Below the pieces are notes generated by a model that was given only the letters and a program-made list of their open reading frames with translations, was not told the origin of the DNA and did not search any database. Shown here piece after piece: positions 247 through 23,902 of a stretch of 64,000 nucleotides of DNA. The position numbers and the translations under genes were made by a program. The stretch covers positions 16,043,857-16,107,856 of the forward strand of contig NC_134834.1 of NCBI RefSeq assembly GCF_004210375.1. The letters are read 5' to 3'. The DNA is from Tachypleus tridentatus. Taxonomy: Eukaryota; Arthropoda; Merostomata; Xiphosura; Limulidae. The first letter of the stretch is position 1, and the number at the start of each line of letters is the position of its first letter.

Positions 247-308
247 ATGGCGTTAAACAAACTTGGAATCGATGCGCTTGATTTAAAAGGTAAAAGAGTA
301 CTGATTAG
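247..308 (+). CDS. Pgk: PGK exon 1
   Basis: Starts with ATG and encodes [20 protein letters not shown] plus two bases of an Arg codon. Donor is AG|GTAAGT at 309. The start is chosen because the residues match the usual PGK N-terminus. Confidence 0.93.
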
Positions 309-3300
309 GTAAGTTCACTCCAACGTTCATTTTCTTGCTGAAAACTGGAAGTAGTGGATGATTGATAGTAGCATACTATTATTACTAACTAAGCAGTACT
401 AGTATTAATAATAATAACAGACCGAGGGCTTCGAGACCTAATGCAGATCTTTAAAGTATTTAAAATCATAATGGTAAAGTTTCATAAATTTCTATACTAC
501 GTAGTTTAAATCACTTAGAAATACAGCTAGTCTGTTCAAATTGTACTGACCTTGGTAACCGGACTAGTAATATTTACGTGTCAGTAAATGGTAGAATGAT
601 TTTTAACAAAGTACCACTGGTAGTGGTGGTGTTTGAATGCAGAATTATTATTTAATAATTTATTTGCGTTACATATTCTGTTAAGTCCTTATTTCTTTGG
701 CTGTAGTTATTACTATTAAAAGATTTATAATTTATATCGGTTAAGCCTGTGTAATATATTATTCTGTATGTAATTTGGTGACACCTTGAAAGTACACGCC
801 ATACATTCTCTCACAAAACCAGTGAAATTATAAGACTGTGGTTTGAACATGAGTCTCTGATGTAGTGACGTACGAGGATTATTGTAAGAACTGGTTTAAG
901 ACTTGCAAATTATGGTCGCTAGTTAAAAGTATATAAATTGTGATTTTTGGTGAAAAAAATTTAACTGTTCAAGTCTATTTTTAGCTTCACATACAGAAAA
1001 ACAGGTAAGAATTAGTTTTTTTTTGTAGGTTAATAAATGAAAAACATCATGATGTTATTACAATTATCTTTCTGCTTCATGTTAAAGGCACAAGATATTT
1101 GTGTACTTGTGGTTTTTAGGAATCACGCTGGGTTTAGAAAAGTGTATGGCAGCCTTACACTTGTGTAAAGTACCACTGATTTCTAAGATTCATGATTTTC
1201 TATAATGACAATTGACAAACTGTAATAAAAGTGAACAAGGCACTATAACTGGGGATACTGTAGTACCCTACTGTTACTTACAAGTTATACAAGTCTTGTA
1301 TGCATGACAGACAAGAATTCTTACTTTAACAACTTCTTCCTACACCACTGGTGTGAATGTCGTTTTTTTATAAAACTTAAGATTTTACATGTTTTATGAT
1401 TTTCTATTGTAAGTTTCATAATAAGTAAATATATTTAATATGAAATAAATTGAGTTATGTTTCTCCATCATTCTCACATTAGTATTAAATAATAGATAAT
1501 TTATATTTTCACATATTCTCATGAATATGTGCATCATGCTTGTTCAGTACTTCAAAATAAATATTTTTTACAACTTCATTTCTTGAGTGATGTAATGTCC
1601 TACAAAGTTATTTACTTTTCTGATGTACTTTATTATCTTCTGTAATAAATGGTTGTTTTCTCACTAGCTTCAGTTTTTAGTGTACAGGTAAAACCTTGTA
1701 AACATGTGGCCTGATAATTAAATGTTCATAAAATGTCATTTGTTCAGTGTTTATCTAAAAATAACTTGAATTATTACTGTTGTTAAACTAATAAAAATTA
1801 TTAAATCTGTAATGTGAGTTACTATAAATGTTTTTTTTCTCCAAAATGTTTTTTTTAGGGTTGATTTCAATGTTCCATTAAAAGATGGGAAAATCACAAA
1901 CAACCAAAGGTATGAGACACATAAAATAATTTATTTAGTGTTAGTTTTGTTTTGAAAAATACAGAATGAAGACTTGTTCATATAGAATGGGTAAAATATT
2001 AAAGTGTGTGAAGTGAGGTTGTCCAAATGATTGATAGAACTTTGTGATTTCGTCTGCTGTACTGAAACGAGAGGACACGATTTTGAGATGTGGAAAGGCA
2101 GGTTTGGCTCCAATTAAGACAGTTGTTTTTTTTCTGTTAGGAGCATTGGCTCGTGAAGTGAATTTCCATTGAGAGTAAGTAAAGCTGGCATTTTACAACA
2201 GTAAAGAAGTCTCAAAACAGATCAATTTATGTAACAATCAAGGCATATAGTTAAAAAATTACATATTTATCGAAGCTTTACAAAATCTATGGTGAATACA
2301 AATTCCAGAAATATCTAATTTAGATTTCTTGTATGATTCAAGAAAAATGGTGTTACAAAATGTATACATGTTCTCAGATATGACAGTACAAAGAACCTTG
2401 AAGGACCAACTCAACCATTGGTCTTAACATTGTTATCCACTGCACTTTAAAAAAAATTATACCTATTTACTTGATAGTTAAAAGGTGAAACTTGTATTTT
2501 TAGCATTTAAATGTTTTTAGGGCCCAACCAGTTTTGAGTCAAGTGCCATGAGTAAATAAATGTGTGTATGTACTTAGGGTAATTTAAGTACTAATCACAG
2601 TTTATATAAAACAAGTTTTGACATTTTGTTACAAAATATTTGAGATAATGTTTTAATTGCAGTTATGGATAATTATGTTCATTTTTTTTTTGTACCAGTC
2701 TAAATTTTATCTTCAGTTAACACTGCTGTGCATGGTTCAATGTTCTCATTAACATTTCAGATTATCTTCAGTTAACACTGCTGTGCATGATTCAATGTTC
2801 TCATTATTAACATTTCAGATGGATAATTCTTAAATTTGAATAAACAGAAACATTCTAAAAATTCCAGAATTAAAACTATTTATATCAATATGAGCAGCTT
2901 TGTTTGTTACAAATGAGAAATATTTCGCAATATTCCTAAAACAGCAAATGTTACTAACCTGTTGACTCCCAAGTATTTCAGCTGCTACAATACAACTCTA
3001 ATGCTTCTTCATTTTGTAACGTTTTTGTGACGCCATTTTGGATCGAAAGTGAAACAATTTGTAAGTAGGTCAGCTGCATGCATGGTGCTGACATCTAGCG
3101 TTGAAGTTAGGTATTATTGAGAATGAATTAACTCATCCATGGCACTGTGTTACCAATCAGCTTGAACGAGTTATCTCATCTTCGTCAGTGAACAGGTTAA
3201 AAACAGTAAATCCTGATGTCATCAATTTGATTTCACTCATGTTACTGAAATTTAAAAACAAATTTTGTGAACAGTATAATTTTTCAATAAGTTATCAGTT

Positions 3301-6300
3301 CTTTTGAAACCTACTGAAATACCAATGACAATTCATTCCATAAGCCAGTCATCCTATAAGTAATATTTGACTTAAATGGGTCCTGGTCTGTGTTTTCCAA
3401 GTCTCATATGTGTCTTCTCACTGTAGTATCTTAAGAATATAGTAAAACCAGAGATGCCAACTATTACAATTTTGGTGTATATATTACAACTATATGCTCA
3501 TACAGACGAATATTATGACTTGTTGCAACTCCCAAATTATTATATATTATATAGGCCTGTACAATAGTGATAAATTGTTCCCCCAGGGGTTGAAAGGGGT
3601 GAAAAGAAAATTTCTAGTGAGACACAAATAAATTTTGATAATAAATAAGAGACATAGTCCAAATGGCTACTTGCGATAATCACGTTTGTGCTTGAAATAA
3701 TAAAAAATATTTGTACCTCTGACGTCTACCAATAGTTTGAGTGCGGTGCTTCTCCATACTGGGTTCGTGGAGGAATCCATAGTTACGTCATCAGTGCTTG
3801 TCAGCCAATCAGTGCTCACGTAGATGGGTATTTCTTGTTTTCTAAGCGGCATAGAAACACCAATGCGATCGTTCACAAGTTGGGAAAAAAAGAGGCCTCG
3901 TTCACCAGATTGTCTTGTTTTTGACAAATCTAAAAGGACTGAAACTGTGAAAGGGCTCTGTCTACAATCATTACGCTCAGTCATTTGAAATAGTTGGCAT
4001 CTCTGTAAAAATAAATTTCATGGTTATCTTATGAACCAGTTAGATAACATTGTAAACTTCAATAAGATTGTTTTTTTCACTTTTAATCAGCCAGATAACA
4101 CAACATTCTTTACAAAGATAATGGATTAATATCTTTTGTTAATGTTGAAAGTTTTGCATTTTTTAATAAAGTTCTGTGCATTCAGAACTTGCAAGGCTAC
4201 ACATGAAAGTTTAATTAAACAGTTATGTTCTTAGAGCAGTGGTAAAATAATTCAGGAACATTATAAATGTTGTGAAGCTTTGATAAATGTGTAACTTTTT
4301 AATTGAAAGAAAAACATCATTGTTACATCCTTATTCATCTATCTTGAGACTTCTTTTACGTCATTAATTTGGTATTTTGCTTGGACAAGTCAGTTTGATG
4401 AATATAGTTCATGATGAGTTTATTTAAGTGACTCAATAGTTGGAAAGTACTTTGATTATTTTAGGTACGTACATACGTTTTGAATTGTGGGTTCTCTAAT
4501 AATTCTGTTCACATACTGATGAGAGATTTTTTTAATTCTGTGCAAAGCTACACAAGGGCTGTCTGTGCTAGCCATCCCTAATTTAGCAGCGTACATGTAC
4601 AGCTAGTCATTACCACCCACTCTTGGGCTACTCTTTTACCAATGAATAGTGGGCTGATGAGAGATTTTTCAGAAACTACATTTTGCATGTGTATAAAGTT
4701 TAATTGAATATAAAAAAAATTCCCAGAGTATTTTACAGAAGGAGAATTTGAAGTTCCATCTACAGAAATATCTAAACATATCAGCTCATACTTGTATCCA
4801 CATATTTAATCTTTGAACTCCTTGCATAATTTCTGACAAACAAAATGACCTGAAATTTTCATTTGTAGGATCTTCACCCTGCAAAATATAAAGGAATAAT
4901 AATTTTCAAAGGAATTTTGAGGAAGCACCGTGGATAGGAAAGTCGGGAAGAGTTTTGAGGGACTCTCGAGTTTCACTAAACTGGTTTATTTAAAAGTTGG
5001 TACTACCATTCAATAATCCACTCGGAATAATAATTTAAACTCGGACCTAGAAAATTTTCTACTTGGTTTCTCCATATGAGAGTGAATGCAGTTTGGGGGA
5101 ATCTTGGTACTGGATCCACAAATTACCCAACAAATTAAAATTACAAGGATGTTTCCAACGCTCAGGAATGACAACACTGGAGAACAACATAAGTGGATGG
5201 GTGAAAGTGGTTTTGTGTAGTTATTTTCTGTGTATTTTCCCGGGTAATTAATTTACTTAATATGCACAAACATGTAAAGTTAAGAATTTAACACAAGTAG
5301 TTTAAATTAAATTTGTTGGTTGTGCATTTGTTTTTGTAATATGAAAAAGGATCTGATACTTTAGGAAGTATCCATCAACTTGAAACAAATAATAAAATCA
5401 GTTTATGAAACAAAGCGTTTTGAGACGTCACTAAATGATCTGTATTTGAACTTTAAAACATTTGCTTATGTTAAAATATAACCTTTTCACACAGAATTGT
5501 TGCAGCTTTAGATACCATTAAGCACGCTTTAACTCAAGGAGCCAAGTCGGTAGTACTGATGAGTCACCTGGGTCGGCCTGATGGTCAACGTGTCGAGAAA
5601 TACTCTTTGAAACCAGTAGCAGATGAGCTGAAGACGTTATTGGGAAGGTGAGCCTTTGATTTGATTTTATGAGCTTGTTTGAAACCACAAGATGGGTTTT
5701 TTTTTTTCCATGCCTCGTGTATTTTGTGGTATCTAAACTGTAAAACCAACTATTGAAATAACACTGAATGTCACCGTACTTTCCCAATTTTATAATAATT
5801 TCTGACACTAAACCTATGACACTTTTATATTGAAGATGACTAATTCCTCTCTTCCTAATGGAGAAGAAAATTCTTGATGATGAGAAACCAACTTGAAATA
5901 AAAATGTATTTCAGAATATGGGTATAAACACTTTTATTGATAAGGAGAGAACAACGTTTTGACCTTCCTAGGTTATCTTCAGGTTAAGAAAATTGACTGG
6001 CTGATAGCACGTGTAATATAACAATGGTCCACCTAAGTGGGTGGATAACTTGCATGAATCATCTCTTCAGTTTTAAGTTTTATCTCGTAGTTAACAGAAG
6101 TTGATTTTTTAACTAGCATTTTGTTTTTCCACAATGCAAGTGTTTGGGAATTTCTTGTATTTCTACAAATGCCATTGAATTCCTGTAAAGTGGGAAGTAT
6201 AGTGTTTAATATAATATTACTTTATAACGTAGTTACTGCAAACTAATCCTGCATGTTGAAGGTTGTTCCTTTTTCTGGACTTCTGCTTGGAATCTTCCAA

Positions 6301-9300
6301 GATGATATTTATGTCCTATGCTGATCCATTCTTCTGGTCTCTTCTGCATGCTAACCAAGATATATAACTACAAGATTTATAGGTTTTCACAAATTGTAAA
6401 AGATACATAGTTTTTTGGATTGTTTTTTTGTACTTTTCACATGGTTTGTTCGTTTGAAAAGAAATAATATCAAAATATAAAAACAAAAAAATAAGTAGAG
6501 ATGCAAGGAGGATGAACAGTTGAAACAACTCTGGACTTTGCAGTAGAACTAGTTTGAGCTTGTAAGTGATGTAATGTTTGTTTAATGTTCTAGATTTTAC
6601 AAGTAAACAACTCTTAAATAAAAGGGGTGCATAAAAAATCTGCTGTTTCTAGTTTATTATCATTAAGTGTGGTGATAATTCCAAATGTAAATGTGGTGTA
6701 TATGAGAATTAAACTCTGTTATGAAGCTTTAATAAATTATCCAACCTTTCCATGTGAAACAGTCTCATAAGTTCTGTTATAGATTGTTTAGGTAGAGTAT
6801 ACCTGATGATATGTAGTTGAATGAATGGCAACTGTCTGTTGTAGGAAACAAAGTACAGAAGACAACATTTTGAAGGTCTTCACCTTTCGTTATCAGGTAA
6901 ACATACATGTGGTGTAGTTGGTCTTTATGGTATTCTGGTGGGCTGTGGAAGATATGATTGGTGGAGATATGATTCAACCAATGGTAGCCACTGTTTACTC
7001 ACCTGTAACTTGGAATCTGTTTAGTGAAGGTTTTATTGCAAAGATTCTTTGATTTTTATTGTATTCCAGAATTTGTGTTGATGATTCTAGTTTTTTTCCC
7101 AATTTATTTTGTGTCCAGTTGATAGGGTGTGTTTTACAATGACTGGATTTTGTGTCTTCATGAATCTTTTAACCTTGTTCTGAGCCTTTTCCCATTTCTG
7201 CAATATATATTCCATTATAAGAATGTGGAATTTCATATACAACTTGTGTTTTTTGTTGGTATGTTTTCAGTTTTGTTTTTCACCAAAAAGGATCTTAATG
7301 TCTTGGAATTTCCACTTGATCTCTGCATGGAATTTCTCAGCTATTTATTAGGTTTTCATGGATATCTTGCAGGTAAGGGAGGTAGTGGTAGTTTTTCTTA
7401 TCTTTTACATCTGTCGTGGTCTTCAAGGAGTTTTTGATGGAGAAGATGTAACCTTCTGTTGTTTAAAGCACTCTCCAATCTTTTGTTATTCTGTTTCCAT
7501 GGAAGTTTTAGTGCAGATGTTTTTTGCCCTTGTGTTTAGACATTGGATTATACCACATTTTATTTAATGTGAATGATAGGACTAGAGGTGTAGGTATCTG
7601 TTCACGTATTGTATACATTTGTAATTATTTTGTCTTGTCTCCTAACAAGTATTTCAGGAAATGGTAGGCTGTGTTGTTCCTCTACTTCTATGGTAAAATA
7701 GATTCTTTTCTCTCTAGAAATACCTTCTAGGAATTCTGGTAAGTTTTCATGACTGGGAGGTTCAGATAACAAAAGTGTTGTCAACATAAAACCATAAACT
7801 TGGTGTTATCTGTGTAGATGATTGGGCTCTTTCTTTAAAGCCAATATCAGTCTTGTAAATGTTCTAGTTTTTTTTTACATTTCAGCTGTGGCTGTAATAA
7901 CATCCAAAGTAATAAAATATAATCCCTCACAACAACAACATGCCGTGAGTGTTTTTTATATTTATATTTCCCAGAAGACTGTTAATAAAGAAATGTTAAA
8001 ACTCCATTCACATATATTTTTATAATTCTGTATACCATAAAATTTATTTAAGACATGTAAATTGTGTAATATTTTAAGTAGGAATACCTATTCATGTCTT
8101 TGCATAAAAGTTATTTTAAACTGTAAAATTTGCACCATGTAGACATTGGTTTTGTTATATTTTGTTTCCTAAAGAAATATGTTAATTATAATTAATTTTA
8201 ATTGGTATTGATTACAGAGAAGTTAAATTTCTACCTGACTGTGTTGGTCCAGAAGTGGAGGCAGCGTGTGATGATCCATCAGAAGGATCTGTGATTCTAC
8301 TGGAAAACTTGAGGTTCCACATTGAAGAAGAAGGAAAAGGAGTTGATGCTCAAGGACAGAAGGTGCTGTATATCTTAATAGTACACCATGCTGGTGCTCA
8401 AGGTGCTGTATATCTTAATAGTACACCATGCTGGTGCTCAAGGTTCTGTATATCTTAATAGTGCACCAAGCTCGTGCTCAAGGTTCTGTATATCTTAATA
8501 GTGCACCATGCTGGTGCTCAAGGTGCTGTATATCTTAATAGTACACCATGCTGGTGCTCAAGGTTCTGTATATCTTAATAGTGCACCAAGCTGGTGCTCA
8601 AGGTTCTGTATATCTTAATAGTGCACCATGCTGGTGCTCAAGGTTCTGTATATCTTAATAGTACACCATGCTGGTGCTCAAGGTTCTGTATATCTTAATA
8701 GTACACCAAGCTCGTGCTCAAGGTGCTGTATATCTTAATAGTACACCATGCTGGTGCTCAAGGTGCTGTATATCTTAATAGTACACCAAGCTGGTGCTCA
8801 AGGTGCTGTATATCTTAATAGTACACCATGCTGGTGCTCAAGGTTCTGTATATCTTAATAGTGCACCATGCTGGTGCTCAAGGTGCTGTATATCTTAATA
8901 GTACACCAAGCTCGTGCTCCAGGTGCTGTATATCTTAATAGTACACCAAGCTGGTGCTCAAGGTTCTGTATATCTTAATAGTACACCAAGCTGGTGCTCA
9001 AGGTGCTGTATATCTTAATAGTACACCATGCTGGTGCTCAAGGTTCTGTATATCTTAATAGTGCACCATGCTGGTGCTCAAGGTGCTGTATATCTTAATA
9101 GTACACCAAGCTCGTGCTCCAGGTGCTGTATATCTTAATAGTACACCAAGCTGGTGCTCAAGGTGCTGTATATCTTAATAGTACACCAAGCTCGTGCTCA
9201 AGGTTCTGTATATCTTAATAGTGCACCATGCTGGTGCTCAAGGTGCTGTATATCTTAATAGTACACCAAGCTTGTGCTCCAGGTGCTGTATATCTTAATA

Positions 9301-12300
9301 GTACACCAAGCTCGTGCTCAAGGTGCTGTATATCTTAATAGTACACCAAGCTCGTGCTCAAGGTGCTGTATATCTTAATAGTACACCAAGCTCGTGCTCA
9401 AGGTGCTGTATATCTTAATAGTACACCATGCTGGTGCTCCAGGTTCTGTATATCTTAATAGTACACCAAGCTGGTGCTCAAGGTGCTGTATATCTTAATA
9501 GTACACCAAGCTGGTGCTCCAGGTTCTGTATATCTTAATAGTACACCATGCTGGTGCTCAAGGTTCTGTATATCTTAATAGTACACCATGCTCGTGCTCC
9601 AGGTGCTGTATATCTTAATAGTACACCAAGCTCATGCTCAAGGTTCTGTATATCTTAATAGTACACCATGCTGGTGCTCAAGGTGCTGTATATCTTAATA
9701 GTGCACCATGCTGGTGCTCCAGGTTCTGTATATCTTAATAGTACACCAAGCTGGTGCTCAAGGTGCTGTATATCTTAATAGTGCACCATGCTGGTGCTCA
9801 AGGTGCTGTATATCTTAATAGTACACCAAGCTGGTGCTCCAGGTGCTGTATATCTTAATAGTACACCAAGCTCATGCTCAAGGTTCTGTATATCTTAATA
9901 GTACACCAAGCTGGTGCTCCAGGTGCTGTATATCTTAATAGTACACCATGCTGGTGCTCCAGGTTCTGTATATCTTAATAGTACACCAAGCTGGTGCTCA
10001 AGGTGCTGTATATCTTAATAGTGCACCATGCTGGTGCTCAAGGTTCTGTATATCTTAATAGTACACCAAGCTGGTGCTCAAGGTGCTGTATATCTTAATA
10101 GTGCACCATGCTGGTGCCTGGTTCTTTCTGTATATCTTAATAGTGCACCATGCTGGTGCTCAAGGTGCTGTATATCTTAATAGTACACCAAGCTGGTGCT
10201 CCAGGTGCTGTATATCTTAATAGTACACCAAGCTGGTGCTCCAGGTGCTGTATATCTTAATAGTACACCAAGCTGGTGCTCAAGGTTCTGTATATCTTAA
10301 TAGTACACCAAGCTGGTGCTCAAGGTGCTGTATATCTTAATAGTACACCAAGCTCGTGCTCCAGGTGCTGTATATCTTAATAGTACACCAAGCTCGTGCT
10401 CAAGGTTCTGTATATCTTAATAGTGCACCAAGCTGGTGCTCAAGGTTCTGTATATCTTAATAGTACACCAAGCTGGTGCTCAAGGTGCTGTATATCTTAA
10501 TAGTGCACCATGCTGGTGCTCAAGGTTTTGTATATCTTAATAGTGCACCATGCTGGTGCTCAAGGTGCTGTATATCTTAATAGTACACCATGCTGGTGCT
10601 CCAGGTGCTGTATATCTTAATAGTACACCAAGCTGGTGCTCCAGGTGCTGTATATCTTAATAGTACACCAAGCTGGTGCTCCAGGTGCTGTATATCTTAA
10701 TAGTACACCAAGCTGGTGCTCAAGGTGCTGTATATCTTAATAGTACACCAAGCTCGTGCTCCAGGTGCTGTATATCTTAATAGTACACCAAGCTCGTGCT
10801 CAAGGTTCTGTATATCTTAATAGTGCACCAAGCTCGTGCTCAAGGTGCTGTATATCTTAATAGTACACCAAGCTCGTGCTCAAGGTTCTGTATATCTTAA
10901 TAGTACACCAAGCTCGCGCTCAGGTGCTGTATATCTTAATAGTACACCAAGCTCGTGCTCAAGGTGCTGTATATCTTAATAGTACACCAAGCTCGTGCTC
11001 AAGGTTCTGTATATCTTAATAGTACACCAAGCTCGTGCTCCAGGTGCTGTATATCTTAATAGTACACCAAGCTCGTGCTCAAGGTGCTGTATATCTTAAT
11101 AGTACACCAAGCTCGTGCTCAAGGTGCTGTATATCTTAATAGTACACCAAGCTCGTGCTCAAGGTGCTGTATATCTTAATAGTACACCAAGCTCGTGCTC
11201 CAGGTGCTGTATATCTTAATAGTACACCAAGCTGGTGCTCAAGGTGCTGTATATCTTAATAGTACACCAAGCTCGTGCTCAAGGTGCTGTATATCTTAAT
11301 AGTACACCAAGCTCGTGCTCAAGGTGCTGTATATCTTAATAGTACACCAAGCTCGTGCTCCAGGTGCTGTATATCTTAATAGTACACCAAGCTCGTGCTC
11401 AAGGTGCTGTATATCTTAATATTAATAGTACACCAAGCTCTTATTGAGACCCATTCAAGTTTTATTAAAATATGATTGGTAGTCGTAATAAGAAACATAA
11501 AAGTGGTACAGTGTAAAACTACATTGACAGACTCAAGACCAACATAATTTATAAAATACAATGCAACAACTGCTACATTTGAAAAAAACAAGCAGAAAAA
11601 TGTAAACTTGGTTAAAAAAAAAAAACCTTCATGTTTTTGAACGCTGCAAAACAAATAAACACAACATAACCATAGAAAACACCCAGATATTGAGTAGGGA
11701 AACAAATATAAATAAATACAAAATCAAAGAAGCTCTACTTATACAGCAACTAAAAGCAAAATTAAAACCAATATAAAGGAACACCTTTATACCTATACTA
11801 ATTAATAACCTAACATACAACTGCAATGCCCCCTACAATCTGGTACCCATTTATACTCTTATGCTTAAGACGTGTGTCCGACAAAGGTCACTTTCAAACT
11901 CTCTCTTGACCTGAAGACCTAGAAAGGTCGAAACGTTGTTCTCTCCTTATCAATAAAAGTGTTAATACCCATACCAGCCGTTCTGAGATATTTTTATTTT
12001 AAGTGTTTCTCATCATCAAGAAGTAGTACAGTGTTTGTCGTCATGACAGTATTTTGTTCATTTGCTTAAGAAAATTTGATATTAAATAATGAAATTGCTA
12101 TACGTGGAAATGGAAATTTTTTAAAACTATAACTGTGGTTTAGCCAGTGCTTGTAAATGTAGGCTTATGTGCTTGTTCTGTTGCATGTAAATGTAGGCTT
12201 ATGTGCTTGTTCTGTTGCATGTAAATGTAGGCTTATGTGCTTGTTCTGTTGCATAAATGTAGGCTTATGTGTTGTTCCGTTGCAACGAAATGTAGGCTTA

Positions 12301-15300
12301 TGTGCTTGTTCTGTTGCACGTAAATGTAGGCTTATGTGCTTGTTCCGTTGCACGAATGTAGGCTTATGTGCTTGTTCTGTTGCACATAGATGTAGGCTTA
12401 TGTGCTTGTGCTGTTGCACATAGATGTAGGCTTGTGTGCTTGTGCTGTTGCACGTAAATGAATAGTTCATTTATTGCTCTTATTACACATTAAAAGGTCA
12501 GATGTTTTAGTCTAGCTGAAGATAACGTTTGTTATTCTAAACACGTAATTAAATCATACATTTATTACTGTACTAATGATCAATGTCATTAAACTTGGAA
12601 CACAGGTGTTAAATTTTCCATCATTAACACACAACTGTGATGTTTTTAGGGTTAAGTAACTTAACAAAATAATGAAATCAACAGAAAATAGTTTTTTTAA
12701 AGATTTCTCTTTCAACAACCTTCTAATGTTTAACATAACAGTGTGAATGCATTTGTCATTTAGACTTATTATAGGCTTGACAAATGTTGGGTAATCTAAT
12801 GTAAGGATCAATTGAAACTATTAATTGCCATTAAAACGTAAATTTAACCCCATTTCAAATAGCCACTGCTAGAAACTTGTTAAACGTTTAGTATATTTAA
12901 GTCAACAGATGGATATACTCAAAGATAACGTATAGTCCAGATTTTCTGGGTGTAACTCATGTTTCATTGTTTTTATTCCACTACCTAACTCTTGGAGTAT
13001 GTGCAAGTATTATAAAAGTGACAGTCAAACTCTGTTGCTTGGCCTAACAATAGATTCTGGAGGGTAAAAAAAAATGACTGGTTGGTTTCCATCTAATGTT
13101 ATCAAGAAGACTAAAGGAGATATCCTTCATGTAGCTGTTAACAAATTCAACAAAAAATCAAAACCCATAGTTATTAAGTTGATACCATACAATATGTTGA
13201 GCAAACATTTTAAATAAATCAAATGTTTGATTACATAAATACTATTTGAGGAATCTTTGGATTACATCAGGAAAGAAACATTGTTCAGAGTTGGCAGGAG
13301 TTTGACAAATGATCAGTTTTTCTCATGCCACGAATTTATAAACCTTTAACGGCCTAACATTGAGGAATCAGATCTAGTTTTTTACTTCCAAGTTTTAAGA
13401 TAGATGACTATAATTTTTTTAATAAAATTGGTTTCATGAAACCTGTTTTAAGATCTGTGGGGAAAAACATAATTTCATAAAATTTGCTTTTACCCTTCAC
13501 AGGAGTTTAGTTATAAAGATCAGTTGTGAATTTTTACACTTAACTACATCTTGGTTGAAAATAGTAATATGATTAAATAATAGATTGTTAGCCATACTTA
13601 AGTTTCTAATTTTTAATATGATTAATTGAGTTTAATACTAAATAATTAATGTAATTAACCTTTATCAGCTAAAAACGTTTGGATTAATTATAATTTCTGT
13701 TGAATTTATATAGTATTAGTATTGTATTTGTAATAAATAATGTTATTTTGACTTGGAGTTATTAAAATTGCTCCCAAATTTGCAACCAGTGTATCGAGAT
13801 TTTTTTTCTTCAAAATTATTTTAATGAATTAAAACAAACCTTCCATGTGCTGGTGGAGTTGTATCCAACCCCCTGAGGTACAAAAACCAAAAATTTATTA
13901 CTTGCAGCTGGCAGTAAGCCATAACTTTCACTAAGTAAGAGTTCTCACTGGATTTTCTTTTAATTTAATTGTACCAGTTTACATGTTAAACCATCAAGTG
14001 TTAATAGGGTATTCTACTCTACCAAGTGCAGTTTATATAAATCAAAATAGGGAAGACCAGTATTGACTCCTCATGATTCAGAATCAATCTTCAACCAGTA
14101 GAGAGCAACATGTAACTTGTACAGTGCTGGTGGGCAATACTAGAACTCGTAGCTCATAAAATTGTATAAAAAATTCATGTGTAATTAATAATTTCGCTGT
14201 AAGAAGTGATTATAACGTTTTCCTTAGTAGCGTAATCATTTAGATTTATTATTTCAATTTCTACGTTCAGGTGAAAGCGAGCCCAGATGCTGTTGAAAAG
14301 TTCCGTGCCTCTTTAACTAAACTTGGAGATGTTTACGTGAATGATGCTTTTGGTACAGCCCATCGAGCTCACAGGTATTGCACCTAGCTGGTAAATCTTT
14401 GATTAAAATAGAGTAATGTATTGAAATTTTTAATTGTATAAAACCATTTGTTAGCCAGATGTCCGTGAAGTTGTAAAAAACTACACAAATCGCTTAAGTT
14501 TTTTTTATTGATTATAGATTGACACTAGATAGCTAATCCTTTCAACTAAACGTTCTTCGTTCTTTTTTCTAGCTCCATGGTTGGTGTAGAACACACTCAA
14601 AGGGCAGCAGGATTTCTGCTGAAGAAAGAGTTGACTTACTTTGCCAAGGCTTTGGAGAATCCAGAAAGGCCTTTCCTCGCTATTTTAGGAGGGTATGTAG
14701 TACATTCTTGTTTGTTTTTAAATGTTGAGATTCTGGTACTAAGCTTACTGAGGTACAAAATACAAGAGGAAGTAATTAGTGCAAACAAGTTGAAGTTTTG
14801 AAACTTCTGTTGTTGTTTCTTTCAGTTTTCTGTAAGTCAGACACTTCAAAAGCATAATCACTTGTTTTTAATTGTACAACAATATTTACACAGGTAGGGC
14901 TTCACCTGTTCACAAATTAATTGTTACTCTGAAAAGAATGTTTTGAAAATTACCATGATGAAGTCTCTGTAAATACAACAAGTAAGATAAGAACTGGTTG
15001 GTGCAGTTAAAACTTTTAGTTTCTAATCTAATGTCAGAAGAAATAATGTTCTGTTGGTTTAAATTTAAATAAATGAAAACATTATACGACAAAATTCTTT
15101 TTTTTCTTATTCTAACTTGAGCAGAGTTAGTAACTGACAGCAGTAAATGAAATAATGTTCATACGACTTTCTATCTGTTTCTTAGTTAACTGGCTTGAAT
15201 TAGAGAGTAAAGAATTAGGTAAATGAAAATGTGTGTCTTTCAGAGAAATAATAAAACTTAAGCTACAATTTTGAGAAAGGAACAGTTTATCTGCTACAAA

Positions 15301-18300
15301 AGCTGCTTGAACACACACAAAATAGAAAATGATATTTTGCCTTTTTGTTCCTTGTTGACCGCTGCCTTCTTGTCAATCCATTAATATATATGCATGTTTT
15401 TGGAATGGCCTCTCCATGCAGGGCTAAAGTGAAGGATAAGATCCAGCTAATTGAAAACATGTTGGACAAAGTGAATGAGATGATTATCGGAGGAGGGATG
15501 GCATTTACCTTCTTGAAACAACTGAATGGAATGCAAGTAAGTTTTCAATGTTAGTTGCTTGTAGGTAAACGCTTCTCAGTGGCTGATGCTGACCATTTGC
15601 ATCTGGTAGGCAGCTCAAAATTAGACAGTAGTACATGGCCGTAGTGGCTATGCCGTAATTAAACATTGTTTTGTTGGTCTTGTTCTATCTTGAATAAATT
15701 TATTTAGTATATTGTTATGAATTTTCCATTTGTGTAATTTTTCATTGACTTTGTATGTCTCACAAGTCACGTAATTCTTATACAGTAATAATACATTTTA
15801 TATCTGTGTGTATTCTAAAAACATCTGGTATGGATATTAAAAGGTTAATTGGTACACAACAATGTGTTGACCTTCTGTTTTTAACCCAAAGATGACGTTG
15901 AAACATTGTTCTCTACTTTATTTTAATTAAAGTTTTAGTACCAACACCAGCTGTCATGAGATATATTTTTTTACTTCAAGTGGATTTCTTATCACCATAG
16001 ATTATTTCATCATGGTGGTTGTTTGTGATGAGCAAGTCTATACTGTTTCTTTGTGTATCTGTTTAAACTCCATTATGTCAAACTTGTATGCATTACTGCA
16101 AACTCTATTAACTTAAAGATGACTTGAAAGGTTTAGACCAGCGTATCCCAAACTTTCTCAGTTCATGGCACCCTTAGTTTCTCAACGATTTTTTTCATGG
16201 CACTCCTCGGCAAAAAGAAAAACCTAACAGTTCCATTTATTAAGTAGTTAGGTCCAAACAACTTAATACTTAAGTATTTGTCCTAATAACTTTAGCCATT
16301 TGGAAGAATAATACACGTAAATTGAAAGTAAGAACAATATTTATATTTCATTTTTAAATAACCACAGTTACTAATGAGATGTGTGTGTACCTATTGGTCA
16401 CTGCACAGATACTCAAACCTTGGACTCAGGTTAAGAATTACCACCCTTCCTTCCTGTTCCACATTGGTTTTCACACAGTTCTTGCTTTTATCACAGCAAC
16501 TGCCAAAATCCAGCTTTGCAGAGATATGACATCACAAATTGTATTAGGATTCACTTTGCAGTGGATATTAATCTTTTTATTGAAAACTATTAGTTCCATG
16601 CTGCCAAATTTTGTTTTAAGTCTTGTCACAAGACAGCTCCATAAAATTGTCTTCTGCAGAGGCAAGTTCAGATGGGGCCTTGAATGGGTCTTGAATCCAT
16701 GCAAACTTCTCTATATCGTGTGGAAAGTTATTTTCAAACCAGTCACTGAGCTGTTAGGTGCTCCTCAGTAACATTTTCTCTGAAGGCTGAAACCTTCTCT
16801 GTGAGTTTCAGAATGTACAAGTTGCTTCCAAGCAGAGAGATATTCAATGCATTCAGTTTTTCAAAGAGATTGCACAGGTTTGCTAATGTTGACAAAAAAA
16901 TCAGTCGGTATCCAAGAGGTTTTTAGCACATTCGTGTTCTTCGAGATGAGAGTAGAGTTCCTGTCGTAATTTCAAAACACAGAACAGTACATTCCCACAG
17001 GAGAGCCATCGTGAGATGCAGTAGTACAACAAAGATGTGTGCTCAGATCCCATATCCTCTCAGTTTTTTAAAAAACCTTTCCTTCTGTGGCCAAGTTTTT
17101 ATAAAGCTCATCACTGTCGACACACTTGACATAACTAGGTTCAGTGGAGGACTCTGGTGCTTTAACACAAGGGCTTCACTGTGGATTATGCAGTAGGTCC
17201 ACAGTGCAGCAAGAGCTTTGCTTTGTAATGCGGTACCTCCAGTGATACTTTTACAAAGAGAAGATCTTCCACAATTTTGTCACCATCTGCAAACCCTGTG
17301 TACCAAATCAAATGAACATCCTTGTTACTATCCGTCACCTCATCTAGCTGTTACCCAAATTCCTTCTTCATTTTTCAGTTAGCTGATCCTTGAGGTCTTC
17401 AGCCATATGTTGGATTCTACAACTGATAGTATTGTTGGATAAAGGCACCTTTGAAAGCAGTCTTCCCTTAGAGTCACCAACTACAATATTTACCACATCC
17501 ACTGCAATTGGTAAAATCAGTTCTTCATTGATGGTGTGAGACTTTTTACATTTTGCGACTCTATATTCCACCTTGTAGGATGCTAGCAAAGTATTGCTTG
17601 GTATTAATGCTTGTTTCAAAATGTACCTGTTTGTCCTTTCAATTCTTTCTGGTAAGATATTCACGGATTTACTAGCCATGTTAGGATGATTGTTCTCTAA
17701 GTGTTTTAGTTTACTTGGAAGCTTGCACTCTGGAGACAAAACATTTAGACATAATACACACTGTGGACACGCTTCATAATTGGTATCCACTGAAGTAAAG
17801 CTAAAATCTAGATAACTATTGTCATAACTCTATTTCTGTTTTTTCACAACTCTGCCACCTGTGTGTTGTTCGCCATTATTTTCCTCACTCCCACACCTCT
17901 TATTAATGTTCAACAATCTTTGTTTTTATACACAAGAACTACAAATCAACAAAATAATTCACTGAACTTCACAACACTCTTCAGTTATTTTGGTTACTGA
18001 TGGACCCAGAGAGTCAACAGGTATTTATGTACAAAATCTAAGAAACAAGAAAATTGAAGAAGTTACTGGTGTAGCCAAAAGTACGAGTAAACAAAAACAT
18101 ATCTCAAACATTCGAGAATGTCATCAAAAGGGAATGTGACCTAATGTTAAAACTGTGAACTACCTTGAGCTAGTAGCTCGCATGGTGTCCAACACTTCAG
18201 TATTGCTGTGTTTCCCTCAAATTTGAAATATCCTGCACCACTCCTGTGAATTCATTGCAGAGCACAGTTTGGGAACTGCTGGTCCAGACATTACTCTGTA

Positions 18301-21300
18301 CTTTGTTTTAATTAAAGTTTTAATACCCACACCAGCCATCTTTAGAATAATATTTTTTTTTTTCTTTACCTCAATTGGGTTTCTTGTTATCGTGAACTTG
18401 TATACAAGTTCATTGCTTACAGTTTTGGTAATACTGTTTTATTTTATTTTGTAAGATTGGAAATTCCTTATATGATGAAGAAGGAGCAGGAATTGTAGGA
18501 AAGCTAATGGAAAAAGCTCGGAAAAATGGTGTTCAAATTCATCTTCCACTGGACTTTGTTACCTGAAGGATGATATGTATTATAGACGATCAGTATCAAT
18601 GAAGCTGCAAGTTTGAAGCTGTGACTACTGGCTCAGCCACAGTAGACTGGTATTCCTGGATGGTATGTAGGATGGAGCATAAGCTGATAAGTTTGAAGCT
18701 GTGACTACTAGACAGTAGACTCGGGTATTCCTGAAGGATGGATGGTATGTATTATAGTCAGTATGTAGGATAAGCTGATAATTTGAAGCTGTGACTACTG
18801 GCTCAGCCTAGACTTATTCTGAAGGATGGATGGTATGTATTATAGACGTAGTATGTAGAGTTTGGGAGGAAATTTTCAGATCTAGTAACATTCACAGTAA
18901 TATATATATGCAAAACGGCTCATTTGGGTTGAGAAAATATTTTGCATAGAAGAGCAAACAACGTTTTTGACCTTCTTCGGTCGTCGTCAGGTTCACAAGT
19001 AAACAAAAACATATCTCAAACATTCGAGAACGTCATCAAAAGGGATGTGACCTAATGTTAAAACTGTGAACTACCTTGAGCTAGTAGCTTGCATGGTGTC
19101 CAACACTTCAGTATTGCTGTGTTTCCCTCAAATTTGAAATATCCTGCACCACTCCTGTGAATTCATTGCAGAGCACAGTTTGGGTATTAGAGCACTAGTT
19201 AGGTATTTTTGTGAACCTGACATTGACCGAAGAAACATTGTTCGCTCTTCTATGTAAAATATTTTCTCAACCCAAATGAGCCGTTTTTGCATATGTATTT
19301 CTCTACAAGTGGGTTTCTCGACATCACTGATTATTCACAGTAATAGTTGAGACTTTTGTTGTTGTTTATGTTCCTCTTCATACATACAAATCTTACCCAG
19401 ACATGTATCACTATACTTTGCTGAACCAGCTTATGTGTGTATAGTATTATAATTATTTAAATAATTTTCATGTAAAAACTGCTAAATGTCTAAATATAGT
19501 TATGTCTGAAAATATATTTTTAAATAAGTTATTTTTTCTCACTTAGTTTTATCTGTGTTCAGTTTATGTTTATTGACCACCACGTCTGAAATGAAACTTG
19601 ATTGTTTTTTTATTCCATTTATTTTACTTAACTAAAGCTCAAACTGCAGTGAACATTGGTAAAGAAAAATTTATTATGTAAACAATACTAGATCTTGTTT
19701 TTTTAACTTTGTGTAGGGTCTTGATTGTGGAGATAAAAGTGTTACAAAGTTCTCTGAAGCAGTGCAAAGAGCAAAGACAATAGTATGGAATGGGTGAGTT
19801 CTTTGTTGTGAATTGTTGTTTAAGGATTGTTTGTCTATAAACAATAGTATTGAATAGATGAGTTTTTGTCCATAAACAGTATTATAGAATGGGAAGCTGT
19901 ATTTACAACTTATGAGTAACAAATATTTAAAGCTTCACGTGATTGGTTAGACCTGAGTACCAAATATCTGTAGCTTCACGTGATTGATCAGATTTGAGTA
20001 CCACATATCTATAGTTTCATGTGAGTGGTAAATTTATTCCAGATACAAAATATCAATTCTAGAAAGTTGTGATAATTCAGTAAATCACTTTATATAGGCA
20101 AAAGAAGAAAATTAATGTAATAACTTCAGGGTTAACTTGAAGAAAGACTTGTTTCTATTTAACTGTCAAGTTCTATTTGTATCAGTAAAACTTTAGGCAG
20201 AATAGACATAGCAGAGCAAGGCTTAAAAATATTTTTGTTTGTGTTAACCCTAAACTGATTTATAATGTAGGTAGGTGAGTAATTATATACATATTTTTTT
20301 TTCACATTGTTAAAAATATTTTAAATAATATCAGTTAATTGATCCAGCTGAAGCATAATGCATACAAATAATTAAGTTCATCTGTATACTGCAAGTTTGC
20401 ATCAAACTTGTTCACAAAGCACACTTGCTGGTCAGTATTGACCTCGAACAATAGAGTTGAGGGATTGTTACTAACAATTTTGACTGTTATTCCTTCATTT
20501 CAAGTACTTATCTCCACCTGGATAAGTTTCCAATTAAGATTAATTTGTTTTTATCTTAATCCTTAATCTATGAGAACATTTTTTGGAGACAAACACTGAA
20601 GAGACTTGGGCTCTGTGTCCTTGAAGTATGCTCATCAGCAGTAAATTCTCTCCTGCTAAGTTCTTTAGTTTAATGTGAGGACCCTGGGAATAAGATATTA
20701 CGTGTTGTCAATTTGTTATGTACTGCTCATTCAGTGACCTATCAGTTGGTACTTAGGTAATGCCCTACTATATCATTGTGGACTCCATGAATTTCTGAAA
20801 AACAATATTATAACCATGATACGGCAGTAAACATGCTAGTTTGCAAATTTATTTGATGGATCAGTATATCTGTAGAAACTGGGGCAAATTTTCCAAGTCC
20901 TGAAGAAACAAAAACTATCAGTTGACCCCTGTTTCAGAAGGTCGGTCAGTTTACAACAAACAAATATAATTTTAAGCCTAACTTAGGTTTGAGAATGTTT
21001 TTAATCAGTATTTGCTTTTGAACGTAATAAAATTAATGTCTTCTGTTTGTGGTCAATGTTTTCGATCGTAAAATGTTAGTTTAATTCTTTTGTTTGAAAA
21101 CAGACCAGTAGGTGTCTTTGAATGGGAAAATTTTGCTAAAGGTACCAAAGCTATTATGGATGAAGTTGTAGCAGTTACTAAAAGAGGTGCTACTACCATT
21201 ATTGGTAAGTTTCAGTAGCATTTATATAAGTTACTTAATTAAAGATATTATAATATGTTTTATTTGTTACGTTAATGCTGGTATTTCTTCATTCAATGTG

Positions 21301-23902
21301 TAGGTTCTTGTTTTGGGTGTCTGTAAATTATGCAGGTGTACATATTTAAACTTCACAAAAGTTGTTTGGGTTTTATTAATAGACTTTCCATGATTCAGCA
21401 ATGCAGATGTCAAAAATATATTTCTTTCTATCTTATAAGGATATTTTTACAAACTGAGAACAAAAACAACTTTCTTAGTTCAGATACCAGTTATCCCAAT
21501 GAACATTTTTTGATTATGTGTGGATTGTAGAAGAATCGATAAAACTATGTAGCATAACAAAATGTCATCTGATTTTAATGAAAATGTTTCACTTGTGTAA
21601 AATTATATACAACTTTTTTTGTGAAAAAATCTGTACATGATGGGGGGGAAAAAAATGGATTTCATTTTTGGATTCAGGTTACAGGAATAATTACAGAAGA
21701 ACATGCAAAACCTTTGTAACAGTAAAACTATTACAGACCTGTGTAATTAACAGAATAGAAGTTGGAACATGTAAACATTTGCAGATTGTGTGAGAGACGT
21801 TTTTTTATGGCTAGTTTGGATGGGGCTATGTAATGGACATTGTCTGTAAGAGGAAGACACTGACCAACCAAATAACCAATGCAGTTCTTATGATTACTCT
21901 TGGAATGATGATTGGTATGAACGAAGATAAATTACCACCTCAGTAGTGTCAGTGGATTAATGGTGTCAGGGCTCGAAAACAGCAACAGATGTGTTGTCTT
22001 CCGCCATACCATAAACTTCATTTCTTTGCTATGTATTTCCCGTTCTTATCATTTAGTAAAATGATTCAATAATTTATGTAAACACTATATATTAAATTCA
22101 CTTAACTGCTGTATGTAATTTGGCACAAGTGTCAACATGATGGCTATATTACACTGAATAAAAACATTTCATCATAAAACCTTCATCACTCAAACTTTGT
22201 ACCAACAAATATAAATACTTTAAAGACCTGTCTTTAAACCAAGAAAGCTTAGAATATTCTGGTGAGGTCTGTTTGGTAGAATGTTTTTTTGTTACACATT
22301 TACAGGTTAGCTTTAGTTTTGTGTTCCTAACCCTAACCCACACGTTAATTTTTCAGGGGGTGGTGACACTGCCACGTGCTGTGCTAAATGGAAGACTGAA
22401 GATAAAGTCAGCCATGTGAGCACAGGAGGAGGAGCTAGTTTAGAACTCTTGGAAGGTAAGTGTTGTAGAGTTGAGGTCAAACGGACTCTGAAAAATCTTA
22501 ACAGAAATGGAAGTAAAGTCATCTGTATGTTATAACAAAATATATTTAAATAAGTTACTGTTATATATTTCAGTCAACTTTACATTTTCTGGTACTAATG
22601 TATTAATTCTAATCTGTGTTTCTTTCCTTATGTTTTCAGTGTTAATTATAGGTATTTTTGATTTTGCACTAAGATTACCAAGTACTTTAATTTACTCAAA
22701 TTTACACTAGATATTCAATGAATTTAGGTATTTTAGACAAAACTCATGGACTACACATACCTTTTTGAGTTTACTTTATTTTACAATGCTAAAAATGCCC
22801 ATAAAAATATTTCAAGATGAGCAAGTTGGTGAAAACTGTGGGACCGACCACTCTATTTTTTTGCTTTTTATCTCGGAAGTGGTAAGTGCCCAAAACACTA
22901 TGCTGCTTAGCTACAGTTGTGATAGATAAATTTTTATCATATCAGTTGTTCCATCTGTTTCTTGTTAATCATCTCCCTTATATTTAATAATAAATTACAT
23001 CAATTTTGTTTTTATATAAATAAAAGTAGACAGTTTTTTGTTGACTGCTAATATGTTTCAACGTCCTTGTTTAAAGATCGTTTTTTAAAGTCTGAACTTT
23101 AAGTAACCAAATCAGAAGTGCGAGTGGTCTAGTAAATTTGGAACTTTGCCTGAAATGTAAGAGAAATAACTTTTTCGAAAGACTTTGGTAAACCCTGCCT
23201 TTGAGTGTAGCTGTCTCTCTCAGTTAGCCTTGATTCTGTTATGTATAATTTCTGTTGTAAGATAAAATTGAGGAGTATTGGATATCTACTTTATTTATAA
23301 TGTATTTAAAGAAAAACCAAATCTTACTGAAGAATATGTAATCCTTGCTCAAGGTGCTGATTTCCTTTAAAAATTTTCATAATGAAGGTATCATAGTAAT
23401 TGGAGATTTATTATCTTTCATATTTACAACTGGTAATTTGAGCTTCTTTGAACTATATTATTATTTATTCAGTTTTAGTATAACAATATTGTACTTCCTG
23501 TATAAATTACCACCTGGTGGATTTTAAACAAAGTTCATAGGTTCTTGATGACCCAAAACCCACTTAAAATAAGAATGAATCTCAGAACGGTGGAATGCGG
23601 TATATTAACACTTTTACTAATAAAGCAGGGAACAATGTTTCGACCTCCCTAGGTCATCTTCAGGTTAACCTGATGACCTAGAAAGGTCTGTTCTCTGCTT
23701 CATTAGTAAGTGTTATTACCTATACCAGCTGTTCTGAGATACAAAGTTCATAGGTGTGATTATGATATATATATTTACATCAGATATGTATTAAGAGGAC
23801 CGCAAAAATATGTGGAACAGCTATCTTGTTTCGATAATTGTCTTCTTTGTTTACTCAGGTAAATGTCTTCCTGGGGTCGCAGCTCTTTCTGATGCTGCCT
23901 AA
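247..23902 (+). CDS. Pgk: Phosphoglycerate kinase gene, 12 coding exons (gene-level entry)
   Basis: PGK transfers the phosphate of 1,3-bisphosphoglycerate to ADP, giving ATP and 3-phosphoglycerate in cytosolic glycolysis. Joining 247-308, 1859-1909, 5495-5647, 8218-8362, 14271-14374, 14573-14692, 15422-15536, 18456-18563 (clean part of exon 8), 19717-19793, 21104-21204, 22357-22455 and 23859-23902 gives the PGK reading order, every junction GT-AG and in phase apart from exon 8. Family signatures: RVDFNVP near residue 21, MSHLGRPDG near 60, ENLRFH in exon 4, [11 protein letters not shown] in exon 5, AILGGAKV across exons 6-7, [10 protein letters not shown] in exon 7, [11 protein letters not shown] across exons 9-10, GGGDTATCC and [13 protein letters not shown] in exon 11. 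Expected length is about 415 residues (animal PGKs about 415-417). Full-length structure and intact motifs argue for a working gene; the fault in exon 8 may be an assembly error. Confidence 0.95.
309..1858 (+). other. PGK intron 1, no further feature seen
   Basis: AT-rich intron with GTAAGT donor and a long T-rich tract before the acceptor TTTTTTAG. No repeat element or coding segment was recognised in it. Confidence 0.8.
1859..1909 (+). CDS. Pgk: PGK exon 2
   Basis: 51 bases completing the split Arg codon and encoding [16 protein letters not shown] plus two bases. This is the conserved substrate-binding segment near the PGK N-terminus. Donor is AG|GTATGAG. Confidence 0.93.
2709..2822. repeat. 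Two-copy tandem duplication, about 57 bp
   Basis: The segment beginning ATCTTCAGTTAACACTGC is repeated directly with few changes, both copies ending near CATTTCAGAT. Confidence 0.85.
3449..4005. mobile_element. Short TIR DNA transposon, hAT-like ends
   Basis: A 17-base inverted repeat bounds the element: CAGAGATGCCAACTATT at 3449-3465 and its reverse complement at 3989-4005. CAG-starting ends of this kind suggest the hAT superfamily. A clear 8-bp target duplication was not found (flanks AGTAAAAC and TAAAAATA). A 105-codon minus-strand frame (3667-3984) lies inside; I do not recognise its product and it may be the remnant of a transposon gene or chance. Confidence 0.6.
4528..4655 (-). mobile_element. 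tRNA-SINE family A, 5'-truncated
   Basis: Matches the 3' two thirds of the family in reverse: GCAAAGCTACACAAGGGCT then CTTGGGCTACTCTTTTACC. The tRNA-like head is missing. Confidence 0.8.
5495..5647 (+). CDS. Pgk: PGK exon 3
   Basis: 153 bases encoding about residues 39-88, including MSHLGRPDG with the conserved His and Arg that contact 3-phosphoglycerate in the family. Acceptor CACACAG, donor AG|GTGAGC; both edges split an Arg codon after two bases. Confidence 0.94.
5648..8217 (+). other. PGK intron 3
   Basis: Holds one fold-back-family fragment near 5870-5998. The rest is AT-rich sequence; the open frames in it show no recognisable protein similarity. Confidence 0.7.
5868..5998 (+). repeat. 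Fold-back dispersed repeat fragment
   Basis: Contains GAGAAACCAACTTGAAATAA, then ACACTTTTATTGATAAGGAG and a GACCTTCCTAGGTTATCTTC segment. The same string, in reverse orientation, is at 11885-12020, and relatives occur at seven other places in the window. Confidence 0.75.
8218..8362 (+). CDS. Pgk: PGK exon 4
   Basis: 145 bases, about residues 89-137, including [20 protein letters not shown] and [13 protein letters not shown]. Acceptor GATTACAG. The donor AAG|GTGCTG is also the first base of a 40-bp tandem array, so downstream copies repeat a near-identical donor string. The exon ends at a codon boundary (phase 0). Confidence 0.93.
8363..11440. repeat. 40-bp minisatellite, about 77 units, starting at the exon 4 donor
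   Basis: The unit runs GTGCTGTATATCTTAATAGT then ACACCAWGCTSGTGCTCMAG, repeated head to tail for about 3.1 kb with substitutions at a few fixed positions (GTGCTG or GTTCTG, GTACACC or GTGCACC, CATG or CAAG, GG or CG, CAAG or CCAG). One unit near 10117 has a rearranged junction, one near 10919 lacks a base, and the last copy at 11415 carries an ATTAAT insertion. The first unit begins on the GT of the PGK intron 4 donor. Confidence 0.97.
11441..12025 (-). repeat. Fold-back dispersed repeat, longer copy
   Basis: In reverse orientation it shares the GAACACCTTTATACCTATAC segment with the copy at 43.7-44.0 kb, and the AGGTCGAAACGTTGTTCTCT segment with the other copies. It directly follows the 40-bp array. 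Two open frames inside are not recognisable proteins. Confidence 0.65.
12152..12462. repeat. 34-bp tandem repeat, about 9 copies
   Basis: Unit TAAATGTAGGCTTATGTGCT then TGTTCTGTTGCACG, with small indels. It lies in PGK intron 4. Both strands stay open for about 80-100 codons only because of the repeat. Confidence 0.93.
12463..14270 (+). other. Rest of PGK intron 4, no feature seen
   Basis: About 1.8 kb of AT-rich sequence leading to the acceptor CGTTCAG. No repeat or coding segment recognised. Confidence 0.7.
14271..14374 (+). CDS. Pgk: PGK exon 5
   Basis: 104 bases, about residues 138-171, with [18 protein letters not shown], the conserved segment near the end of the N-terminal domain. Donor AG|GTATTG. 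Confidence 0.94.
14573..14692 (+). CDS. Pgk: PGK exon 6
   Basis: 120 bases following TTTTTTCTAG. Encodes [15 protein letters not shown], then [18 protein letters not shown] and LAILGG, the interdomain region of PGK. Donor GG|GTATGT; the Gly codon is split. Confidence 0.94.
14693..15421 (+). other. PGK intron 6, no feature seen
   Basis: AT-rich intron with GTATGT donor and CCATGCAG acceptor. Nothing else recognised. Confidence 0.75.
15422..15536 (+). CDS. Pgk: PGK exon 7
   Basis: 115 bases encoding [20 protein letters not shown], then [18 protein letters not shown]. This is the start of the nucleotide-binding C-terminal domain. Donor CAA|GTAAGT, phase 0. Confidence 0.94.
15845..15990 (-). 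repeat. Fold-back dispersed repeat fragment
   Basis: Carries GACGTTGAAACATTGTTCTC, then AGTTTTAGTACCAACACCAG, a diverged copy of the family at 11.9 kb. Confidence 0.7.
17368..17790 (-). pseudogene. hAT (ZBED5/FAM200-like) transposase fragment
   Basis: 140-codon open fragment. It shows [12 protein letters not shown] (zinc-finger remnant), [11 protein letters not shown], a [17 protein letters not shown] stretch and [18 protein letters not shown], in the order seen in ZBED5/FAM200-type domesticated hAT proteins. The usual catalytic and dimerisation region beyond it is not open. It is the remains of the gene carried by the surrounding transposon. Confidence 0.8.
18083..18281. repeat. hAT right end, duplicated at 18999-19184
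   Basis: The last ~200 bases of the hAT element recur almost unchanged about 900 bases downstream, past exon 8, in the same orientation, up to CAGAGCACAGTTTGGG. Confidence 0.9.
18285..18400 (-). repeat. Fold-back dispersed repeat fragment
   Basis: TTAATTAAAGTTTTAATACC then CACACCAGCC, similar to the copies at 11.9 and 15.9 kb. It directly follows the hAT target duplication. Confidence 0.65.
18456..18563 (+). CDS. Pgk: PGK exon 8, intact part
   Basis: 36 clean codons: [20 protein letters not shown], then [16 protein letters not shown]. The next triplet is a TGA at 18564-18566. In other PGKs about 23 more residues (beginning ADKF and ending GWM) precede the next intron; here they occur only in the damaged repeats that follow. 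Confidence 0.92.
18564..18860 (+). repeat. Scrambled tandem copies of the PGK exon 8 end and donor
   Basis: Three near-complete and one partial copy of a ~90-base segment: GCTGATAAGTTTGAAGCTGT, GACTACTGGCTCAGCC, ACAGTAGACTCGGGTATTCC, TGAAGGATGGATG|GTATGT. The copies start near 18564 (partial), 18601, 18681 and 18771. Each has different small deletions, so none reads through in frame, but together they spell the expected exon end and its donor. Candidate GT donors are at 18663, 18745 and 18833. Confidence 0.9.
18905..19345. repeat. Fold-back element with nested hAT end
   Basis: Inverted arms: CATTTGGGTTGAGAAAATAT near 18918 with GAAGAGCAAACAACG, and the reverse complement at 19205-19300 ending CAACCCAAATGAGCCG. 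Between them lies the duplicated hAT end at 18999-19184. Confidence 0.8.
19717..19793 (+). CDS. Pgk: PGK exon 9
   Basis: 77 bases encoding [20 protein letters not shown] then TIVWN and two bases of Gly. It follows the polypyrimidine acceptor TTTGTGTAG. It corresponds to the nucleotide-binding domain helix before the WNGPVG motif. Donor GG|GTGAGT. Confidence 0.93.
19794..21103 (+). other. PGK intron 9
   Basis: Contains a three-copy ~47-bp repeat (19915-20045). The remaining ~1 kb shows nothing recognisable. Confidence 0.7.
19915..20045. repeat. About 47-bp tandem repeat, 3 copies
   Basis: Unit AGCTTCACGTGATTGGTTAG followed by ACCTGAGTACCAAATATCTG, with divergence growing along the array. Confidence 0.85.
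21104..21204 (+). CDS. Pgk: PGK exon 10
   Basis: 101 bases encoding [20 protein letters not shown], then [13 protein letters not shown] and a split Gly. It includes the VFEWE motif whose Glu binds the nucleotide ribose in the family. Acceptor AAAACAG, donor G|GTAAGT. Confidence 0.94.
21205..22356 (+). other. PGK intron 10, no feature seen
   Basis: About 1.15 kb, AT-rich, with acceptor TTTTTCAG. No repeat family member recognised. Confidence 0.7.
22357..22455 (+). CDS. Pgk: PGK exon 11
   Basis: 99 bases encoding [20 protein letters not shown], then [12 protein letters not shown]. This is the glycine-rich nucleotide-binding signature of PGK. Donor G|GTAAGT. Confidence 0.94.
22456..23858 (+). 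other. PGK intron 11
   Basis: Holds a palindromic fold-back element (23560-23750) about 110 bases before exon 12. Nothing else recognised. Confidence 0.7.
23560..23750. repeat. Fold-back element, compact palindrome
   Basis: Left arm CACTTTTACTAATAAAGCAG, then GACCTCCCTAGGTCATCTTC. Right arm, reversed: CCTGATGACCTAGAAAGGTC, TCTGCTTCATTAGTAAGTG. The arms meet at AGGTTAACCTGATG, so the RNA would form one long hairpin. Confidence 0.85.
23859..23902 (+). CDS. Pgk: PGK exon 12 with stop codon
   Basis: Follows TTTACTCAG. It completes a Gly codon, encodes [13 protein letters not shown] and ends in TAA at 23900-23902. This is the normal PGK C-terminus (LPGV followed by AL) and fixes the end of the gene. 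Confidence 0.9.

Follow-up and report, generated by a model that had tools for sequence, protein, structure and literature searches.

Phosphoglycerate kinase exon 8 in a Tachypleus tridentatus assembly: a garbled exon end that likely reflects local consensus error, with a probable unpurged haplotig nearby

The stretch of DNA analysed here, called the window throughout, comprises the 64,000 nucleotides at C10:16043857-16107856 of a 2.17-Gb assembly of Tachypleus tridentatus in 205 contigs. A profile search for the coagulogen family (PF02035), which is not known outside horseshoe crabs, gave 19 matches in this assembly and none in 14 control genomes. The window carries a phosphoglycerate kinase (PGK) gene of 12 coding exons, which lies on the plus strand between 247 and 23902. 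Eleven of these, all but exon 8, have open frames and the expected GT/AG borders, and the initial annotation was correct in holding the remaining exons to be intact. When the tail of exon 8 is borrowed from a second copy of the locus (copy B, described below), the spliced product has a Met start, a terminal stop and no internal stop, and its residues 1-336 match mammalian PGK1 structures with E values down to 4.9e-162. All 18 of the PF00162 matches listed exceed the curated cut-off; they lie on C10 and C3, and six are inside the window. The exons other than exon 8 are as follows.

247..308, plus strand: PGK exon 1, coding part; second copy found in the C3 paralogue alone
1859..1909, plus strand: PGK exon 2; second copy found in the C3 paralogue alone
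5495..5647, plus strand: PGK exon 3; intact in the window, frameshift in copy B
8218..8362, plus strand: PGK exon 4; open frame, splice borders
14271..14374, plus strand: PGK exon 5; intact in the window, frameshift in copy B
14573..14692, plus strand: PGK exon 6; open frame, splice borders
15422..15536, plus strand: PGK exon 7; open frame, splice borders
19717..19793, plus strand: PGK exon 9; open frame, splice borders
21104..21204, plus strand: PGK exon 10; open frame, splice borders
22357..22455, plus strand: PGK exon 11; intact in the window, frameshift in the C3 paralogue
23859..23902, plus strand: PGK exon 12 with the stop codon; open frame, splice border

Several repeats and remains of mobile elements lie in and around this gene. 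A 40-base tandem array of 76.5 copies (8360-11421) starts at the last three bases of exon 4, so that its unit (AAG/GTGCTG) reproduces the border between exon 4 and its intron in dozens of repeats; copy B contains this array as well. In intron 7 an open frame on the minus strand (17371-17829) resembles, by eye, a decayed transposase of the hAT/ZBED type. Intron 8 holds a short element (18902-19298) with inverted ends of about 66 bases that are 92% identical; an internal stretch of this element recurs in the upstream hAT-like region, and its flanks carry, again by eye, a likely target-site duplication, ttcacagtaat. Farther along, at 33302-33897 on the minus strand, two overlapping frames resemble, also as judged by eye, a Tc1/mariner transposase interrupted by a frameshift.

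Exon 8 begins at 18456, preceded by AG, and runs for exactly 36 clean codons before a TGA, as had been reported. What follows was resolved into passes through the end of the exon, defined by exact matches of at least 8 bases to the clean sequence of copy B; the borders of the four passes were set by hand for a pass-by-pass alignment. These features, together with a direct repeat that brackets the exon, are listed here.

18083..18273, plus strand: direct repeat, upstream member, 191 bases, 97.9%; brackets exon 8
18456..18562, plus strand: intact 5' part of exon 8, codons up to DFVT; AG border, frame, 107 of 107 bases identical to copy B
18563..18594, plus strand: pass 0, partial exon end and donor; skips from base 12 of the B stretch to about base 71, by exact matches and alignment
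about 18595..18670, plus strand: pass 1, garbled, nearly full; exact matches to copy B, alignment
about 18671..18768, plus strand: pass 2, garbled, nearly full; 46-base exact stretch, exact matches, alignment and TRF
about 18769..18857, plus strand: pass 3, garbled, nearly full; aligned part differs from B by 6 small deletions and 2 substitutions
18858..18911, plus strand: unique intron 8 beyond the array; further deletions against B of 9, 3, 7 and 1 bases
18995..19184, plus strand: direct repeat, downstream member; brackets exon 8

The at least three copies of about 90 bases that the initial annotation described, each with exon end and donor, thus resolve into one partial pass and three that are nearly full, and TRF reports a tandem repeat at 18672-18858 with a period of 88, 2.1 copies, 84% matches and 10% indels. 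The longest exact match to B within the array is 46 bases (18712-18757), which is far above chance. In the B stretch beginning GGACTTTGTTAC, the exact matches together span bases 1-12 and 14-129, leaving one base uncovered, and the copies do therefore jointly spell the exon, as had been proposed; passes 1, 2 and 3 begin at about bases 24, 14 and 14 of that stretch. Neither exact matches nor alignment revealed a complete pass through the exon 8 end among the four. The pieces missing within passes are of 1 to 7 bases each, and over all four passes the alignment to B contains 16 deletions, 3 insertions and 7 substitutions, end overhangs not counted. Relative to B, passes 1-3 all lack the same 3 bases and have two adjacent substitutions in common, and in pass 1 the B-type motif TCAATGAAGCTGCAA and another version, GTTTGAAGCTGTGAC, stand in series. 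There is no assembly gap within the array. The disturbed stretch, earlier placed at 18564..18860, proved to be slightly wider (18563-18911, about 350 bases), since it includes the deletions in the unique intron past the array.

Copy B lies inverted on the same scaffold, on the minus strand from C10:15921526 downwards, about 155 kb away when measured from exon 8 to exon 8. It is collinear with positions 4101-60841 of the window (about 57 kb), at identities of 94.6-99.5% in long blocks and down to 88% in short array pieces. B carries one undamaged copy of exon 8, followed by a GTATGT donor, and at this site 211 bases in the window face one base in B, the alignment being collinear on either side. 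At window position 4101, B abuts exactly a run of 500 Ns (15921527-15922026), and exons 1 and 2 of PGK are absent from it. A whole-genome search with window positions 100-2000, in which the best candidates were scored, returned the diverged C3 paralogue alone as a second copy of these two exons, and comparison of window positions 1-4100 with C10:15860001-16043856 gave a single match of 253 bases at 89% and nothing more. Because B starts at the N run and this search gave no second copy of exons 1 and 2 except that in the C3 paralogue, B has the appearance of a truncated contig. Sequence just to the right of the window has homology at C10:15839332-15841363; for the inverted copy as a whole (C10:15839332-15921526), homology was seen at either end of the 82-kb span and stops at the 500-N run.

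The pair thus shows what a retained haplotig would leave behind: a gap between two duplicates on one scaffold, truncation of one of them at a contig end with the rest present once (at the N-run end of B, the one examined), and collinear identity at the level of alleles, introns included, with 443 substitutions, or 0.93%, among 47,669 aligned bases outside the arrays. In the mangrove horseshoe crab, heterozygosity is given as 0.8% and duplicate heterozygous contigs are described in the assembly (PMC7210998). From these comparisons of sequence we infer that B is the other allele, a retained haplotig or unpurged allelic contig, and the inverted copy at C10:15839332-15921526 probably represents a haplotig that escaped purging and falsely makes PGK and its surroundings occur twice in this assembly.

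The distribution of indels between window and B was also informative. For this count the segments were set by hand, the TRF arrays were omitted save the exon 8 array (18672-18858), which was deliberately retained, and the 211-base insertion itself was left out. The densest 150-base cluster coincides with 18781-18911 and holds 10 deletions and no insertions, against an expectation of 0.43 per 150 bases; in the remaining comparison the small indels are nearly balanced, with 75 deletions and 63 insertions. An excess of one kind of indel, as would mark a local consensus error, therefore reaches beyond the repeated unit and includes unique intron, and since the deletions extend past the array, the trouble is a property of the stretch and not of the repeat. 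The clusters ranked second to fourth (4151-4234, 4527-4673 and 5024-5158) all lie within the first 1.1 kb or so of B. As these adjoin the N run, noisy patches evidently exist at this locus.

Isolated coding indels are found in the other two PGK copies. Window and B align without gaps in 8 of their 10 shared exons (exon 8 being compared up to 18562), and frameshifting indels occur in exons 3 and 5 of B. A diverged PGK paralogue is found at C3:106797501-106818856, which possibly stems from the horseshoe crab genome duplications. Its exon 8 is single and intact, and a frameshift in its exon 11 is perhaps a sequence error too; its exons 4 and 5 were traced as stop-free Pfam matches. None of the exons read is broken in two PGK copies. 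Among these exons, a break in one copy is matched by an intact exon in another, which points to residual sequence error.

Other accounts of the array were considered and set aside. Splice paths with a single GT-AG intron of at least 20 bases were enumerated as far as each of the two intact exon ends that the array contains; 10 of these paths are in frame without stops, and none of them restores exon 8, the longest yielding 45 of its 60 residues. This speaks against rescue by splicing through the array and also against duplicated or mutually exclusive exons, for which, in addition, no complete pass with its own splice sites is present. Ordinary minisatellite decay fits poorly with 84% matches and 10% indels in an array whose flanks differ by about 1%; the five highest-copy TRF arrays of the window have 90-94% matches and 0% indels, although some short arrays there also reach 10-12% indels. 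Insertion from elsewhere was rejected as well, as a DNA search with 18480-18900, with the best candidates scored, returned the query itself and copy B alone. Among the literature matches listed, nothing relevant was found on PGK in horseshoe crabs or on PGK exon duplication.

As a whole, these results make it likely, with a probability that we put at roughly 80%, that exon 8 of an otherwise good PGK owes its garbled end to a local consensus error, spanning about 350 bases (18563-18911), in a noisy assembly. The assembler may have strung together several error-rich, possibly mixed-allele passes of one short stretch, and polishing would then have left this patch of the window unrepaired. The presence of both motif versions in series in pass 1 fits a consensus that joins two alleles, a fit that is suggestive only. 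The animal's PGK is most likely an ordinary 12-exon gene. Two observations count against a consensus error. B is noisy as well, and the array is free of gaps; true allele-specific tandem duplications inside one contig are on record (PMC9516828). A third, the differences from B common to passes 1-3, speaks against independent random errors, unless the allele in the window differs from B or the error is systematic: such common differences are expected if the window allele truly differs at these bases, and otherwise they favour real duplication of a variant unit.

Real rearrangements on one allele are less likely readings. One would be a complex lesion of a single allele, in which a break or a stalled replication fork led to repeated template switching and in one step to a gapped tandem series, leaving a heterozygous null allele of PGK. 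Pieces of local template with back-jumps are the pattern of templated-insertion repair, the common differences of passes 1-3 are accommodated, and function could be covered by the intact allele together with the old C3 paralogue. The 191-base direct repeat (97.9%) on either side of exon 8 also favours such an event, although it could promote a real rearrangement or a misassembly alike. We nevertheless regard this lesion as unlikely, in view of the many small deletions within each pass, which are not confined to the junctions, the persistence of deletions in the unique intron downstream of the array, and the unrelated coding indels in the other two PGK copies, which point to base quality. The initial annotation had preferred an assembly error on top of a real local duplication. 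Its first half is upheld by the clean single exon in B, a copy outside the sequence available to that annotation, by the deletion-only noise past the array and by the isolated coding indels in other copies. Its second half supposes that the exon end is truly duplicated in tandem on the window allele and that consensus error garbled the copies afterwards. This would account for the variants common to the passes, in a region where tandem arrays abound (TRF gives 23 rows for the window, of which some overlap). We judge it decidedly improbable; exon 8 is unduplicated in both B and the C3 paralogue, and two independent events would be required at one place.

Finally, B might have arisen by a genuine inverted duplication of the gene, in which case the window copy would be an ageing pseudogene with a decayed exon 8, as the opposite orientation of B on the same chromosome-scale contig and about 57 kb of collinearity would allow. 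This seems to us very hard to credit. B ends at the 500-N run without exons 1 and 2, and its divergence of 0.93% is near the 0.8% heterozygosity published for one horseshoe crab species (PMC7210998). Moreover, the window retains 11 of its 12 exons intact, and 8 of the 10 that it shares with B align without gaps, which is at odds with decay so severe that it scrambled the end of one exon. If the locus is left alone, annotation would yield a disrupted PGK and one PGK too many, both probably false, and the lesson is that neither a PGK pseudogene nor an extra PGK should be called here. Horseshoe crabs are a group studied for whole-genome duplication, and hence a miscount of PGK matters. Comparison of allelic contigs within one assembly provides a cheap detector for errors of this sort.

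With eukaryotic phosphoglycerate kinase (PF00162) the window product shares its Met, its stop and its matches to PGK1 structures, and it differs in that the end of exon 8 is unusable as assembled. Templated insertions of alternative end joining are made of successive copies of a local template, separated by jumps. The exon 8 array resembles them in this respect, but it exceeds 200 bases and there are deletions inside the copies and beyond the array. The false duplications of long-read assemblies, heterotype and homotype, and error-rich under-collapsed sequence (PMC9516828) resemble this locus in the pair on one scaffold with a gap between its members, in the local sequence errors and in the risk of falsely gained genes or exons; they differ in that no gap lies within the exon 8 array, and they are defined by criteria of depth and k-mers, whereas our assignment comes from sequence comparison.
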